38,967 bases of DNA from a virus, in IMG/VR virus record IMGVR_UViG_3300043429_000469, positions 1-38,967 of that record. The stretch is one strand, 5' to 3'. Below are positions 5,999-21,932 of the stretch, in pieces. Every line of letters starts with the position of its first letter. The first letter of the stretch is position 1. A program made the translations under genes and the position numbers. The notes under the pieces are model-generated. The model was not told where the DNA came from. It worked only from the letters and a program-made list of their open reading frames with translations, and did no database searches.

Positions 5999-6491
5999 CT
6001 ATTTCAACGTGCTGCCAGAAATGGCCGTTCCTAATCTTGGAAATCATCTGATGGGTGATGCCAAATCGGTCGGCAATGGCCTGATTTTTGTCGCCTGCGG
6101 CAATCTGTCTTTTTATCTCCCTGACGGCATATTCCGTCAGTTTGGCGTTTCCATTCTGTTCGCCCTTGACGGGTCCAGTACGGTGCCGCCCGCGTTCCAT
6201 CATGTCTCTGGTGTTCTGCTTCACATCGCCAAGGTACAGATGGGCCGGATTGCAGCACGGGCGATTGTCGCACTTGTGCAGCACCATCTGGTCATCCCAG
6301 ACAGCCCCGTGTCTTATGAGGTATGCCACCCTAGAAGTGGTCATTGCCTTGCCGTTCAATTTGAAAGAGCCATATCCATTCTTGGATTTTGCTCCCTGCC
6401 ACGGCCAACATTCATCCGTCCCCGCCCTCTGGACTTTTGACCAAAACCTTTCTTTCCAGTCACGGCGAGGACGTGGAACATATTTGCTCAT
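5979..6491 (-). CDS. HNH endonuclease with C-terminal HTH
   Basis: 170 residues, between integrase and attP. Residues 14-100 are an HNH_3-type nuclease: 'RFWSKVQ', 'CWPWQGAKSKNGYGSF', 'RVAYLIRHG', then 'VLHKCDNRPCCNPAHL' with the catalytic His and the zinc-site cysteines, and 'NTRDMMERGRH'. Residues 113-160 resemble a DNA-binding helix-turn-helix (NAKLTEYAVREIKRQIAAGDKNQAIADRFGITHQMISKIRNG), common in homing enzymes. Its start overlaps the integrase stop by four bases, so it is co-transcribed. It is probably a free-standing homing endonuclease that inserted next to the attachment site. Confidence 0.88.
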   Translation of the reverse strand: MSKYVPRPRRDWKERFWSKVQRAGTDECWPWQGAKSKNGYGSFKLNGKAMTTSRVAYLIRHGAVWDDQMVLHKCDNRPCCNPAHLYLGDVKQNTRDMMERGRHRTGPVKGEQNGNAKLTEYAVREIKRQIAAGDKNQAIADRFGITHQMISKIRNGHFWQHVEIEKGEAA

Positions 6492-7651
6492 TTATCTGCC
6501 CTCCGATGATGACCGTAAATCCTCTCAATAGTGCTGGCATCCGCCCCCAGAACCTCGGCAGTTTCCCAGATCGTCAAGGGCTTCTGAGCGGGCCTAGCGC
6601 CCTTGGCTTCCCGGCCCCACAGGAGCCAAGATGCCGCAGTGTGGCGCAGGGTATGCGGGGTAACGTCTTCCCCCAGCCCAGCGGCTTCCCTGACGGTGTT
6701 CCAGGCGCGGCGCATCTTGGTTATCGGTTGCCCAGCGTAAGAGACAATAAATTTGCGTCCTTTGCTTCGTGAAGCGTCATGCCATCGGTTAAGAAAAACC
6801 AATAGCCTTCCTTTGATCTGCACAGGCGGACGTCTCTTGCTGGATTCTTTCTCAGCAATTCCTCTGCGGTAGATAACGCCGCGTACAAGGTCTGCATGTC
6901 CTCCAATTTGAGAGGCATCCCATCTGAGTCTGAGAATTGCGTCATGGCGTGTTCCTGTATAAACCCCGATTAGAATGAACCGCGCAACGTGGGAATAGTC
7001 CGTATACTGCACAGCACCTTTGGCGGCTTTGTGACCTTCGCGCGATAGACGGCGGCATGCCCACAACATGCGGGCGACTTCATCCCTTGTGAGCCACCTT
7101 TCGCGCCTGCTTTCCACCTTTGGCAGGCTTACCTTTGGCACGGCTTCCAGCGGGCTTTCGCGGTGCCAGTGGTTTATTGCGGCTTGGAAGGTCTTTAGTT
7201 CCTGGCGGGCGGTCGAGGACAAGACCAATCCCTGTTTCCTTAAACCTTTCCCACTCTGCGGAACTGAGCGTGATGATGGCGCTCCCGTCCGGTGTGACAA
7301 ATACGCTCGGCATGTCGATCCTTTCACATCAGCTAGTGATTTATCGCCCCAATACGCACTCAACGCTTTGCAATGATACCTGATCGTTTCCCGGCTGGGG
7401 CTGTCGGCGGGAAGATCGGTCAGGTACAGCATCAGAACATCAGCACAGGCGACATTGCTTAGGCTGCGTGTTCCGGTGTCTGGTCGGTAGTGGCTGGCGA
7501 GGTAGTCCCGCAGGGCTTGCGTGGCCCCGTCAGCATCTTCAAGAGCGCATCCTGTGCTAACTTCCTTCGCTCCGTCCCTGATAACGTAGACGGCCTGACG
7601 GCCCTTCTGGCGTTTGACGTAGAGCCTCGCGCCTTTGCTAGGTCGCGGCAT
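6488..7651 (-). CDS. int: Tyrosine integrase
   Basis: 387 residues. Residues 70-165 form the SAM-like core-binding domain; the catalytic domain has R235 (YTGTRHDAILRLRW), H333-x-x-R336 (TPHTLRHTAASWLL) and the nucleophile Y379 (ERIYGHH). The usual second His/Trp before the tyrosine is Ala370 (LGADAS), a substitution I know from related alphaproteobacterial integrases. It catalyses recombination between attP and the host tRNA-Pro gene. The first 193 nt lie inside the excisionase gene in another frame, and it is followed by the HNH gene and then attP. Confidence 0.95.
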   Translation of the reverse strand: MPRPSKGARLYVKRQKGRQAVYVIRDGAKEVSTGCALEDADGATQALRDYLASHYRPDTGTRSLSNVACADVLMLYLTDLPADSPSRETIRYHCKALSAYWGDKSLADVKGSTCRAYLSHRTGAPSSRSVPQSGKGLRKQGLVLSSTARQELKTFQAAINHWHRESPLEAVPKVSLPKVESRRERWLTRDEVARMLWACRRLSREGHKAAKGAVQYTDYSHVARFILIGVYTGTRHDAILRLRWDASQIGGHADLVRGVIYRRGIAEKESSKRRPPVQIKGRLLVFLNRWHDASRSKGRKFIVSYAGQPITKMRRAWNTVREAAGLGEDVTPHTLRHTAASWLLWGREAKGARPAQKPLTIWETAEVLGADASTIERIYGHHRRADK

Positions 7652-12079: not shown

Positions 12080-12349
12080 TTACCTATGGTTAAATGGAAT
12101 CTTTGACAGCGCCTCTAGTCGGATCGGCAGGCCAGACACTTCGCCTTTATATATCCAATCGAGCGTGACGCCGTATTTCTCTGCAACAGATGCCGCGACA
12201 TCAAGGGTTATTCGACGGCGCCCCTTTTCATACTGGTTCCAGGCAGGCTGCGTAATGCCGAGGCCCTCCGCAAACGGTTCCTGCTTTAGGCCGGTTAGAT
12301 CGCGGAGCGCGGCGAGCCTGAGTCCGATTCTATCTGGTGGATCAATCAT
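12080..12349 (-). CDS. XRE-family repressor
   Basis: 89 residues. One HTH_3 domain fills residues 8-70: 'IGLRLAALRDLTGLKQEPFAEGLGITQPAWNQYEKGRRRITLDVAASVAEKYGVTLDWIYKG'. It diverges from the Cro-like gene across an operator-filled gap, so it is the likely lysogeny repressor. It has no LexA-type peptidase domain, hence no direct RecA-driven self-cleavage; induction must work another way. SD is weak (AAGGG close to the ATG), consistent with low synthesis. Confidence 0.8.
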   Translation of the reverse strand: MIDPPDRIGLRLAALRDLTGLKQEPFAEGLGITQPAWNQYEKGRRRITLDVAASVAEKYGVTLDWIYKGEVSGLPIRLEALSKIPFNHR

Positions 12350-18128: not shown

Positions 18129-18694
18129 ATTTCCGCGATGATAGCATAAGGGCAGTGTGTCCACTTTTCCAAGTGGAAGGCGGCGGTTCAACTCCGACCT
18201 CATCGCTCCAGCTTTATATTGGGGAGGTTAGCCTAGACCTCGCCATTCAGCTTGTGGCGCTGTGGCATTCGCGCCTGCCCAAGGTGGACAAGTCAAACAT
18301 GACCCGCACCCGCCATCTGTGGTGCGTAGGCGCTGAACATGGCGGCAAGTGGTACGCGGTAGCCATTTGGACAAACCCCATATCCCCAACCTACGCTCAC
18401 AAGCCATTCCTTGAGTTACGCCGCATGGCAATTTCGGATGACGCGCCCAAGAACACGGCGTCAAGGATGCTTGGCATTATGGCCCGCATGATCCGCAAGC
18501 GGTATCCGGCAGTCACGAACCTCATCAGCTACCAAGACACGGACGTTCATACCGGGACGATCTACGCCGCAGCCGGATGGCGGCCGGAAGGCTTCCGCAA
18601 GGGCGGTGAAGACATTTGGACAACGAACAACCGCAGGCGCGCAAAGCAGCAGGCGGCTGGTGACAAAATCCGCTGGGAAAGGAAAATCGCTTAA
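18125..18694 (+). CDS. Mom-like GNAT-fold protein
   Basis: 189 residues, ATGA overlap. 'LALWHSRLPKV'-like start (VALWHSRLPKVD), 'KWYAVAIWTNPIS', 'FLELRRMAISDDAPKNTASRMLGIMARMIRKRYP' and 'NLISYQDTDVHTGTIYAAAGWRPEG' form a well-known phage family of the GNAT fold. The same blocks occur in Mu Mom, which adds a carbamoylmethyl group to adenine and protects DNA from restriction. I infer a DNA-modifying, anti-restriction role; the chemistry here is unproven. The Lys/Arg-rich C-terminus suits DNA binding. Confidence 0.7.
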   Translation: MNFRDDSIRAVCPLFQVEGGGSTPTSSLQLYIGEVSLDLAIQLVALWHSRLPKVDKSNMTRTRHLWCVGAEHGGKWYAVAIWTNPISPTYAHKPFLELRRMAISDDAPKNTASRMLGIMARMIRKRYPAVTNLISYQDTDVHTGTIYAAAGWRPEGFRKGGEDIWTTNNRRRAKQQAAGDKIRWERKIA

Positions 18695-19146
18695 TGTGGC
18701 TAATCCTCCGCACCGACTTCCGCAAGGAACCCTATGTGGTTTCCCAGATTGCCAACCGTGGCTTTACCGCATGGCATCCGGTCCAGGTTATAGCCACACG
18801 CCCCGCAGTAGCCCGCCGCGTCACAGCCAAGGCCCAGCTACGGGCTTACCGTGAGATAGCGATATTACCCCGCCGCGTGTTTGGATGCCTGCCAGTGGCC
18901 TCCGTAGACGATTTAAACGGCATTCGGCATCTGGTGGGCGTCGAGTTTGACGGCGACATGCGCCCGGTGGTCATACCTGACGGGCAGATCGCGGCATTTC
19001 GGGCTGTGATTGACGCGGAGAACAGGGCGGCATTGGCGCTATCACAATCTGCTAGCAGAAAACAGAAGGCAAAATGGCGCGATTTGAAGGAGGCGTTGCT
19101 GGAAATGGTTGACCAAGCCAAGGCGCAATTGGAGCAGGCGGCATGA
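18694..19146 (+). CDS. NusG-like (NGN-only) antitermination candidate
   Basis: 150 residues; TAATG overlap with the previous gene. Residues 1-100 fit the NusG N-terminal domain: 'MWLILRTDFRKEPYVVSQIANRGFTAWHPVQV', then 'REIAILPRRVFGCLPV', 'IRHLVGVEFD' and 'PVVIPDGQIAAFRAVI', parallel to RfaH and LoaP. The KOW domain is absent; instead a charged helix (about 105-150) follows. NGN domains clamp RNA polymerase and suppress pausing and termination. It is the last sizeable early gene, immediately before a structured RNA and terminator that precede the late genes. A lambda Q-like function is my inference. Confidence 0.7.
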   Translation: MWLILRTDFRKEPYVVSQIANRGFTAWHPVQVIATRPAVARRVTAKAQLRAYREIAILPRRVFGCLPVASVDDLNGIRHLVGVEFDGDMRPVVIPDGQIAAFRAVIDAENRAALALSQSASRKQKAKWRDLKEALLEMVDQAKAQLEQAA

Positions 19147-19262: not shown

Positions 19263-19378
19263 AAACCGCCACAAAAAAGTCGCAATTACCCCCGATCTTG
19301 CACGATGACGAATTGCATATGCCGCTCAAGAGGGTTCGCCCCGTGGCTGTAAACGCTGCACCGTTCGCGGCGTGTTGA
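19259..19378 (+). CDS. 39-residue basic protein
   Basis: GTG 19259 overlaps the preceding TGA (GTGA). The product starts MKTATKKSQLPPILHDDELH and continues MPLKRVRPVAVNAAPFAAC; it is basic and Pro-rich with a terminal cysteine. It is the last coupled reading frame before the non-coding block. Function unknown. Confidence 0.4.
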   Translation: MKTATKKSQLPPILHDDELHMPLKRVRPVAVNAAPFAAC

Positions 19379-19393
19379 GAAGAATTGCCTGAA

Positions 19394-19804
19394 TTTGCCT
19401 TTTGTTTTACGAGAACCCTTCCACCCTGCAGAGGCCGAGGGTTGGCCCTTCCGGTGACGATGGGCGAGCAGAAGGCAAAACTCATTCCCCTGCGCTCAAA
19501 TCAACCTCGCAACGTTCCCCGACTGCACTCGTCTCGCGGTTAAAGCGCAGGGGATACCTCATCGGGGTCGTGCCCGGTTCATGGAGCCTGAGCATGCTCA
19601 AAAACTGCTCGCCTAACCATCAGGTGTTTGTCCGAGCCTGTGCTGCTTGGCGCGTCCTAGACGCATCGGACTCCAACTTATCCCGCTTGGATGCGTCCAG
19701 CGGCCCCTACAGGTTCCGGCTTGTAGGGTTTTCCTTTCCCGCCCGCGACCACTGCCACCCCTTCCAGGTACAGCGTAGAGCAGATTGCGCTTGCGCGGCG
19801 GGAA
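19394..19804 (+). ncRNA. Structured non-coding block B (early/late boundary)
   Basis: 19379-19829 has no credible gene. It contains nested perfect repeats: TTTGCCTT (19394-19401)/AAGGCAAA (19472-19479), enclosing AACCCT/AGGGTT (19414-19419/19438-19443); CCCCTGCGCT (19487-19496)/AGCGCAGGGG (19544-19553); two mutually exclusive stems, GTCCGA/TCGGAC (19630-19635/19666-19671) and GACGCATC/GATGCGTC (19660-19667/19690-19697); a terminator at 19705-19737; and TTCCCGCC/GGCGGGAA (19736-19743/19797-19804). I infer a folded leader RNA of about 400 nt with a switch-like pair of stems before the terminator. DNA functions (pac or cos) are an alternative. Confidence 0.55.
19705..19737 (+). terminator. Intrinsic terminator before the late operon
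   Basis: CCCTACAGG (19705-19713) pairs with CTTGTAGGG (19720-19728) over nine positions (one G-T) around a TTCCGG loop, followed by TTTTCCTTT. It ends structured block B, 93 nt before the first late gene. I see no good promoter between it and ATG 19830, so late transcription probably has to pass through it. Confidence 0.75.
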
Positions 19805-19829
19805 CCCCATCACAAGCAAAGAGGCTAGC

Positions 19830-20264
19830 ATGAGCGACCAAGCCACCAAGGCAGTCGCTGCCAAGAGCCGATTCCGGTTCTACGTTTACAAGCTGTACGA
19901 AGTACCCGAGGTAATTCTTTACGTGGGGAAGGGCAGCGGGCGGCGTCTAAAAGCACAAATGCGCCGTCACCGCCTCAATGGCGAGGTCATCAAAGAGTTT
20001 AGGTGCGAACGCGATGCGTTCCAGTTTGAGCGCAAGATGATTGCGGCGGCCATGCCGGAACTTAACAAGTCTCCCGGCGGCAATGGTGGCACTGTACGGA
20101 CTAAGAGGCGCACACCTCGCAAGACGGCAGACGAGAAGCTGATGGATAAGATCGGCACCCGCGTTTACGCCGCAAGGATGTTGCTCAGGTTTGACCTGAA
20201 AGGTTTGGTTGATAGGGGCACTTTTCAGCGTATTCGGGAGGTGGCCTATGGCGCGTCCCTCTGA
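19830..20264 (+). CDS. GIY-YIG-type nuclease
   Basis: 144 residues from ATG 19830, with AAGAGG 6 nt upstream. 'RFYVYKLYEVPEVILYVGKGSGRRLKAQMRRH' is the GIY-YIG core with Y-V-Y and Y-V-G as the two motif triplets and the conserved Arg, and 'ERDAFQFERKMI' carries the metal-binding Glu. The tail is basic (RTKRRTPRKTADEK). It is the first late gene, directly before terminase, so it may assist packaging (HNH proteins do so in other phages) or be a homing nuclease. It overlaps the small terminase gene by 17 nt. Confidence 0.75.
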   Translation: MSDQATKAVAAKSRFRFYVYKLYEVPEVILYVGKGSGRRLKAQMRRHRLNGEVIKEFRCERDAFQFERKMIAAAMPELNKSPGGNGGTVRTKRRTPRKTADEKLMDKIGTRVYAARMLLRFDLKGLVDRGTFQRIREVAYGASL

Positions 20265-20634
20265 CTTCACGCAGGAAATGGCTGACCATATCTGTGAACG
20301 ACTGTCTGAGGGTGAAAGCCTTCGGTCAATCTGCAACGACATGGACTTTCCCGGCAAAACTACCGTGTTCCGCTGGTTGTCTACAAACAAGGAGTTCCGG
20401 GACCAATACGCGCGCGCGAGGGAATGCCAAGCCGATGCGATTGCTGACGAAATTCTCAACATTGCGGATGAGGCTGAAGACGCTGGAAAGGCCCGCGTTC
20501 AGATTGATGCCCGCAAATGGCTGGCAGGCAAGTTGAGGCCCAAAGTTTACGGCGACAAACTGGCGGTTGGTGGCGACCCTGATGGGGAACCAATCAACGT
20601 GGTTGCCCGCATTGAGCGCGTCATAACCAAGTGA
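20248..20634 (+). CDS. terS: Terminase small subunit
   Basis: 128 residues from ATG 20248, which follows the ribosome site GGGAGGTGG. The N-terminal HTH ('TQEMADHICERLSEGESLRSICNDMDFPGKTTVFRWLSTNKEFRDQYARARE') matches small terminases of the 'terminase small subunit-like' group, followed by 'QIDARKWLAGKLRPKVYGDKL', their usual end. It recognises the packaging site and recruits the large subunit, whose GTG start overlaps its stop. Confidence 0.88.
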   Translation: MARPSDFTQEMADHICERLSEGESLRSICNDMDFPGKTTVFRWLSTNKEFRDQYARARECQADAIADEILNIADEAEDAGKARVQIDARKWLAGKLRPKVYGDKLAVGGDPDGEPINVVARIERVITK

Positions 20635-21932
20635 CCACTCTGCGGATTGAAACCGCGCCAGTATTCGAACCGCTTCTGAAGCCATCCCGTTACAAATGTT
20701 TGGCTGGGGGTCGCGGTTCAGGGAAGTCGCATTTCCTTGCGGAGCTAATGATTGAAGAGGCGCTGCTGAACCCCGGCATGCGCGCCGTTTGTATCCGCGA
20801 AGTGCAGAAGTCCCTTAAGGAAAGCGCCAAGCGCCTCATCGAGGATAAGCTGACCAAGTTCAACCTTGGTGCCAAGCATGGCTTCAAGGTGCTGATGGAC
20901 CGCATCGAAACACCCGGCAATGGCGTCATCATCTTTCAGGGCATGCAGGATCACACTGCAGAAAGCATCAAGTCTCTGGAAGGTTATTCGAGAGCATGGA
21001 TTGAAGAAGCGCAAACACTGTCGGCTCGGAGCCTGGGCCTTTTGCGTCCTACCATTCGCGCGGAAGGTTCGGAGTTGTGGTTTTCGTATAATCCGACACG
21101 GAAAAGCGACCCCGTAGACCAGATGTTTCGCGGCGGTGATCCGCCGACTGACTCAATCGTCATCAAGGCCAACTGGTCAGACAATCCTTGGTTCCCAAGC
21201 GTCCTTGAACAGGAGCGCCAGGACTGCCTCAGAAGCCAGCCTGACCAGTATCCGCATATCTGGGAGGGCGACTACGCCACGGTGCTGACGGGCGCTTACT
21301 ACGCCAAGCATCTTGCGGAGGCCAGAGCGCAGGGCCGGATCGGTAGGGTGCCTGCTGATCCCTTGATGACAATTCGCCTGTTTTGGGATCTGGGCGGGCG
21401 TGGTGCGCGGTCTGACGCAACGTCCATTTGGGCTTCGCAATTCATAGGCCGGGAAATCAGAAACCTAAATTACTACGAGGCCGTTGGGCAACCGCTTGGG
21501 GCTCATGTTAACTGGATGCGTGGGCAAGGTTATACGCCTGACCGAGCTTCGATCTGGCTTCCTCACGATGGCGGCACTGTTAATCCAATAGCAGATGCGT
21601 CGTGGGAGAGCGCCCTTCGGGAAGCTGGATATTCGGTGAGGGTCGTTCCCAACCAAGGTGCCGCCGCCGCTATGCAGCGCGTAGAAGCCGCTAGAAGGTT
21701 GTTCCCGATGATGTGGTTTAACGAAGAGACAACACGTGGCGGTCTGGATGCCTTGGGTTGGTATCATGAGAGGCGCGACGAGGCCCGCAACATTGGCCTT
21801 GGGCCTGACCACGATTGGTCCTCGCACGCTGCTGACGCATTTGGCCTTATGGCCGTGGCTTACGAAGCCCCGAGAGAGAAACCCAAGCCCCGCGAGCGCA
21901 TGATCCGCCCGCAAGGAGCCTGGATGGCATGA
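20631..21932 (+). CDS. terL: Terminase large subunit
   Basis: 433 residues, PBSX/Terminase_3 type. ATPase: Walker A G26-GRGSGKS33, Walker B 'AWIEEAQ' with E125-E126, coupling motif around 'WFSYNPT'. Nuclease: D253 in 'RLFWDLGG' and 'DHDWSSHAADAFGL' near residue 395. It powers DNA translocation through the portal and cuts the concatemer. GTG start overlaps the small subunit stop (GTGA). Length is normal for the family. Whether packaging is headful or cos cannot be read from the sequence. Confidence 0.95.
   Translation: MTTLRIETAPVFEPLLKPSRYKCLAGGRGSGKSHFLAELMIEEALLNPGMRAVCIREVQKSLKESAKRLIEDKLTKFNLGAKHGFKVLMDRIETPGNGVIIFQGMQDHTAESIKSLEGYSRAWIEEAQTLSARSLGLLRPTIRAEGSELWFSYNPTRKSDPVDQMFRGGDPPTDSIVIKANWSDNPWFPSVLEQERQDCLRSQPDQYPHIWEGDYATVLTGAYYAKHLAEARAQGRIGRVPADPLMTIRLFWDLGGRGARSDATSIWASQFIGREIRNLNYYEAVGQPLGAHVNWMRGQGYTPDRASIWLPHDGGTVNPIADASWESALREAGYSVRVVPNQGAAAAMQRVEAARRLFPMMWFNEETTRGGLDALGWYHERRDEARNIGLGPDHDWSSHAADAFGLMAVAYEAPREKPKPRERMIRPQGAWMA

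Follow-up and report, generated by a model that had tools for sequence, protein, structure and literature searches.

A NusG-like protein and a two-hairpin leader RNA as a putative antitermination module of phage late genes

The late (terminase) operon of the phage described here is preceded by an untranslated leader, whose most conserved part, positions 19313-19391, is composed of two hairpins (P1 and P2) and a short linker. The gene upstream of this RNA codes for a short protein of the NusG lineage. We propose that the protein and P1-P2 probably work together, letting RNA polymerase pass stop signals into the virion genes. From sequence, structural models and analogy we consider it fairly probable that they constitute an antitermination module similar to that of LoaP, which controls late genes in the place occupied by Q in phage lambda. 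The window, i.e. the whole stretch of DNA analysed, comes from IMG/VR, where it forms a record 38,967 bases long. Its relatives were collected from IMG/VR by means of related terminases and DNA patterns, and the leaders compared comprise nine distinct leaders of the window type together with the more distant ones of L093, L104 and L106. All leader features are given on the plus strand.

Genome context and the NusG-lineage protein

The first late gene in the window (19830-20264, plus strand) encodes a GIY-YIG nuclease-like protein (PHROG 22377, 4.6e-16) and is followed on the same strand by genes for the small and large terminase subunits (20254-21932; PHROG 1482, 5.2e-47, and PHROG 3717, 1.9e-51). 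Erf and SSB are found on the minus strand, as well as an integrase (6488-7651) and a repressor-like HTH protein (12080-12349); resolvase, replication and Mom-like genes are located on the plus strand. Inside the Mom-like gene there is a weak tRNA-like match (18135-18206; 31.4 bits, gathering score 29), in which ARAGORN finds no proper anticodon. Named relatives of the terminase include Sulfitobacter and Bradyrhizobium phages and EBPR podovirus 2. Searches with the DNA gave no match among INPHARED phages, and none among plasmids.

The 150-amino-acid protein encoded at 18694-19146 (plus strand) consists, judging from its homologues and a structural model, of an NGN domain followed by a basic helical tail. 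On its own the window protein gives weak matches (NCBIfam UpxY antiterminator, 4.5e-4, below the cut-off; Pfam NusG, 0.1), and the window form has no PHROG match. Its homologue in L093, 54% identical, matches Pfam NusG with 4.9e-7 (30.6 bits, cut-off 22.2) and the PHROG 6386 transcription antiterminator with 2.1e-8; the homologue in L091 matches Pfam NusG with 3.3e-6 (27.9 bits). These two homologues pass the Pfam cut-off, and it is through its 54-59% identity to both that the window protein can be assigned to the NusG superfamily. Compared with L093, L091, L104 and L106 together, the protein is 54-60% identical. Neither INPHARED phages nor the bacterial genomes searched contained a match to it.

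Modelled with AlphaFold (pLDDT 81), the L093 protein has the NGN fold: it superimposes on RfaH with a Z score of 10.0 (rmsd 2.8, 87 residues aligned), Foldseek matches it to the NusG N-terminal domain with 5.6e-4, and the 50 structural matches listed are NusG/RfaH/Spt5-type chains. The NusG/RfaH alignment covers residues 1-111 of the L093 protein, the remainder being a predicted helix. No KOW domain was matched in the NusG-like protein, whose 150 amino acids end in a predicted helix. The basic helix, at residues about 120-130, contains an invariant QKAKW. A stretch of lambda N, EKQAQWKAA, resembles the helix sequence RKQKAKWR, possibly by chance.

The P1-P2 core and its co-occurrence with the protein

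The P1 hairpin (19313-19352) has the sequence UUGCA-[UAU]-GCCGC-[UCAAGA]-GGG(UUCG)CCC-GUGGC-UGUAA. Invariant columns make up 29 of the 42 in its alignment and 97.4% of cells are paired; two pairs are changed on both sides, each of them in 3 of 11 sequences. The covariation score is higher than in all 500 shuffles; such shuffles keep relatedness, and the independent changes are few. Most relatives share the UUCG tetraloop of the window and L104 has UCCG, which makes P1 a UNCG-type hairpin in an operon leader, as known for LoaP; the exception is L106 with UUUG, which is not UNCG. P2 (19353-19373, ACGCUGC-loop-GCGGCGU) is kept as a hairpin in L093, L104 and L106 from largely different sequence: in L106 and L104 other bases make up its stem, and in L093 the closing helix differs. 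The conserved unpaired linker AGAAGAAUUGCC (19378-19389), included together with P1 and P2 in our model R1, has the counterparts AGAUUUGCC, AGAUUUGAC and AGAUUUACA in L093, L104 and L106, respectively.

The folding energy of P1-P2 is no better than that of shuffled sequences (z -0.2), and in several relatives RNAfold favours other folds. With the energy unremarkable, the case for this RNA rests on its conservation. P1 of the window is 85-93% identical to that of L093, L091, L104 and L106 (the lowest value among all pairs is 82.5%), and in the same comparison the third codon positions of the NusG-like gene are 40-44% identical; the overall ranges are 82-93% for P1 and 40-45% for these codon positions. 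P1 is therefore far better conserved than these positions, which indicates that selection acts on the RNA. We propose P1 as the recruitment site of the NusG-like protein. A small peptide encoded by the 5´ block (ATGCCGCTCAAG...) was also considered and ruled out, because the changes are compensatory and its ATG is ACG in L106. The P1 pattern had no match in the bacterial genomes searched.

The G-U pairs of P1 (columns 13-33) are invariant in all 11 sequences. Only a plus-strand RNA can account for such pairs, which favours RNA over a DNA palindrome. They also bear on the idea that the conserved repeats are DNA sites beside the terminase (pac or cos), or traces of recombination between phages. 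This idea would account for the position just before the terminase and for the mosaic joints seen at module ends. We nevertheless regard it as very improbable: compensatory changes, and G-U pairs that stay the same on one strand, fit RNA, and P1-P2 is kept with different types of terminase. The pair of P1-P2 and protein precedes three of them, in L093, in L104 and in the window family.

Protein and RNA occur together without exception in the sequences searched. A scan of IMG/VR with the protein yielded 16 contigs, and P1-P2 is present downstream in all 16. Three of the sequences (L104, L105 and L106) had no part in model building, and their P1-P2 scored 66-68 bits, with E about 1e-16 for 57 kb searched. 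Conversely, a search with nothing but the P1 sequence yielded 15 contigs; the protein is encoded in 13 of the 13 that have enough upstream DNA (L003 and L090 end too soon upstream and were left out of this count). Of 38 complete records, 10 encode the protein, and exactly these 10 have a clear P1-P2 match, the best other match having E 0.012. As gene and RNA are closely linked, they might also have been inherited jointly.

This complete co-occurrence has to be weighed against the view that P1-P2 acts alone on RNA polymerase, in the manner of the put RNA of phage HK022, and that the neighbouring NusG-like gene is incidental. P1-P2 matches put in size and in its two-hairpin layout. The constant company of the protein speaks against an independent RNA, and R1 had no match in 7.5 kb of HK022, a stretch that may not include put. 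We therefore consider an RNA acting alone unlikely.

Five other phages with related large terminases (L009, L018, L037, L046 and L047) encode longer NusG-family proteins (196-265 amino acids, counted from the first start) about 1-5 kb upstream of the terminase. P1-P2 is absent in these five, and no convincing P1-like UNCG hairpins were found near their terminases. A NusG-type regulator upstream of the terminase is a recurring arrangement, as these further cases indicate.

Exchangeable hairpin modules of the leader

The interval 19394-19804, singled out in the preliminary description as a candidate regulatory RNA, is the variable 3´ part of the larger leader and begins just downstream of the P1-P2 core. 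The leaders of relatives are mosaics of hairpin modules. Their order is fixed and their parts are exchangeable: P1-P2 with linker, insert A, module B, any of C, D and E, module F and the first late gene. Modules B and F are common to the relatives. The presence of A, C, D and E varies, and for this reason a single rigid RNA spanning A to F was ruled out. Several relatives carry small genes on the opposite strand between F and the first late gene. Upstream of P1, an A/T-rich conserved DNA block, GCCAYAAnnnnGnnnCAATTR (19268-19290), can be aligned by eye in members of the family and is a possible start or pause region; a scan for sigma-70-like promoters, this block included, found none.

The inverted repeats reported in the interval are present. 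Five perfect repeats of at least 8 bp occur within 220 nt, against 1.04 expected; at least five were reached in 13 of 2000 simulations, and when the window was divided into 386 overlapping tiles, only 5 of them reached this number. The pairings are 19394-19404 with 19469-19479 (10 of 11 positions paired), 19486-19496 with 19544-19554 (11 of 11), 19463-19471 with 19605-19613 (9 of 9), 19657-19667 with 19690-19700 (10 of 11) and 19736-19743 with 19797-19804 (8 of 8), and GTCCGA at 19630 finds its complement TCGGAC at 19666. These stems had been said to nest with one conflict only; 19463-19471/19605-19613 and 19394-19404/19469-19479 compete for 19469-19471 as well. The region folds better than shuffled sequence: 19379-19829 has a z score of -2.86, with 1 of 100 shuffles equally good, and the modules give -4.8 (B), -3.1 (A), -2.5 (C-E) and -2.4 (F). 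Three equally long stretches taken from genes as controls gave +0.65, -0.7 and -1.6. No Rfam family reached its gathering score in this region, and nothing credible appeared at E up to 10. Among relatives, module B varies in length by numbers not divisible by three; the region is therefore non-coding, as had been supposed.

Module A (19394-19479) is a hairpin insert seen only in the window. Unrelated inserts occupy the same site between linker and B (19394-19483 in the window) in L003, L008, L085, L088 and L091, and L002, L086, L092 and L094 have none. The inserts at this site form hairpins, of which some fold significantly better than shuffles and others do not. Module B (19487-19553), the hairpin CCCCUGCG...CGACUGCA...CGCAGGGG, is common to 10 distinct relatives. 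It is unsuited to a covariation test, since its outer stem hardly varies and B itself had served to find some of the members. Module C (19559-19615) is an insert found in the window only. Module D (19616-19675) is composed of a GUCCGA/UCGGAC stem and the hairpin GCGUC-CUA-GACGC; it is present in the window, L002, L003, L088 and L091 and absent from L008, L085, L086, L092 and L094. Module E (19676-19735) contains a terminator-like hairpin at 19705-19728 (CCCUACAGG UUCC GGCUUGUAGGG UUUUCCUUU), and L092 has a hairpin related to it, without the U-run. The terminator of the preliminary description thus exists as a hairpin, but sites of this kind are no commoner than by chance: two were found in the 1.6 kb scanned, 19705-19728 being one of them, against 2.1 expected from shuffles. 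In most leaders no obvious intrinsic terminator was found.

The same description interpreted D and E as alternative folds controlling this terminator, as in an attenuator or riboswitch. The sequences GACGCATC and GATGCGTC are indeed a perfect 8-bp complement that shares bases with the D stem and lies upstream of the U-run hairpin. The window, however, is alone in having both alternative partners, and this speaks against a switch: four relatives (L002, L003, L088 and L091) have D without E, one (L092) has an E-like element without D, and the D stem itself is invariant. A switch of this type is accordingly most unlikely. Of the original proposal, a non-coding, structured RNA absent from Rfam at the boundary of early and late genes has stood; the switch has not, and the best conserved part proved to lie outside the interval.

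Module F (19736-19804) ends the leader with the hairpin UUCCCGCC-CGC.../...GCG-C-GGCGGGAA, which contains a bulged base. Here the search for covariation in relatives, suggested at the outset, did reveal compensatory changes: 97.4% of cells are paired, two pairs are changed on both sides, and 1 of 500 shuffles scored as high. F-like hairpins are found also in L104 and L106. A separate conserved hairpin, GCGACCAAGC-N5-7-GCAGTCGC (GACCAAGC-N5-7-GCAGTC), is located where the first late gene begins (19834-19858). It has 20 exact matches across loci against 0.07 expected, with related copies counted apart, and is found also in L009, L010, L011, L013, L045 and most members of the P1-P2 family that cover this stretch. 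Hairpins of this type coincide with the beginning of that gene or shortly precede it; in some phages they belong to the coding sequence (MSDQA..AVA), in others they do not. The N-terminal peptide MSDQAN-AVA (19830-19870 in the window) heads quite different first late proteins: the GIY-YIG nuclease in the window, small terminase-like proteins in L003 and L093, and another protein in L086.

The closeness of F and of the 19834-19858 hairpin to the start codon, together with the exchangeability of the hairpin modules, would suit a leader that affects how the first late mRNA is translated or how stable it is (as 5´ UTR element or in protection from RNases) or that autoregulates the NusG-like gene from its 3´ side. 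The core itself fits such roles poorly, as P1-P2 is remote from the late start codon and can be as much as 1.2 kb away from the gene of the NusG-like protein (L092); we give these roles little credence.

Proposed mechanism and relation to known systems

The gene layout matches the place of Q and the late promoter in phage lambda, and on this account we propose the NusG-like protein and P1-P2 as an antitermination module of late genes. The phage would make the short NusG-lineage protein during middle transcription. We infer that transcription by host RNA polymerase starts ahead of P1-P2 and that the nascent hairpins recruit the protein, which may bind the RNA through its basic helical tail and the polymerase through its NGN domain. 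The polymerase modified in this way would ignore leader terminators, of which 19705-19728 may be one in the window. Read-through may also take place within the moron genes that separate leader and terminase in relatives, or in more distal parts of the late operon. The modules that follow the core are exchangeable.

The closest parallel is LoaP, a NusG paralog of Bacillus velezensis, which is recruited by a UNCG-type hairpin in the leaders of two operons (dfn and mln), causes terminator read-through and binds RNA with both its domains (PMC12691694). Shared with LoaP are a NusG paralog encoded beside its target operon, a UNCG-type hairpin in an untranslated leader and a long operon. Contrary to LoaP, the presumed target is a phage late operon and not antibiotic genes, KOW is not detected, two hairpins are adjacent and one family member has UUUG. 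The module would work like LoaP, but we do not class it as LoaP, because the KOW part is not matched and RNA binding is putative. RfaH and the UpxY-type paralogs share the NGN domain, RfaH being the best structural match and UpxY a weak NCBIfam match; RfaH, however, reads an element of non-template DNA, whereas the conserved element here looks like RNA.

Two phage systems are comparable as well. The put element of HK022, about 70 nt with two stem-loops and 21 Watson-Crick pairs, causes antitermination from the nascent transcript without a phage protein (PMC9378689). P1-P2 agrees with it in layout, being about 70 nt long with two stem-loops in a predicted nascent phage transcript; it differs from put, which acts on early genes and does so unaided by a phage protein, and no sequence match between them was found. 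Late control by lambda Q at pR´ occupies the same place in the genome, between replication and recombination genes and late genes. Q itself has no relation to NusG, and what it binds is promoter DNA. HK022 put acts through the zinc-binding domain of the RNA polymerase beta´ subunit. Whether the present module represents a new class of processive antitermination, in which a nascent dual-hairpin RNA recruits a short KOW-less phage NusG paralog by way of the invariant basic helix (QKAKW) of the protein and which replaces late control of the lambda Q type in a group of phages, is a further step, which we put forward tentatively and with some doubt.

Phage NusG-like proteins are already annotated as a family of transcription antiterminators (PHROG 6386 and 25909), yet no RNA target for them was found in the open literature searched. 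A compact conserved RNA beside a NusG-like gene makes the question of the target directly testable. If our proposal is true, NusG paralogs recruited by RNA would extend from antibiotic operons of Gram-positive bacteria to phage late genes, and a small two-part switch for read-through would be on offer.
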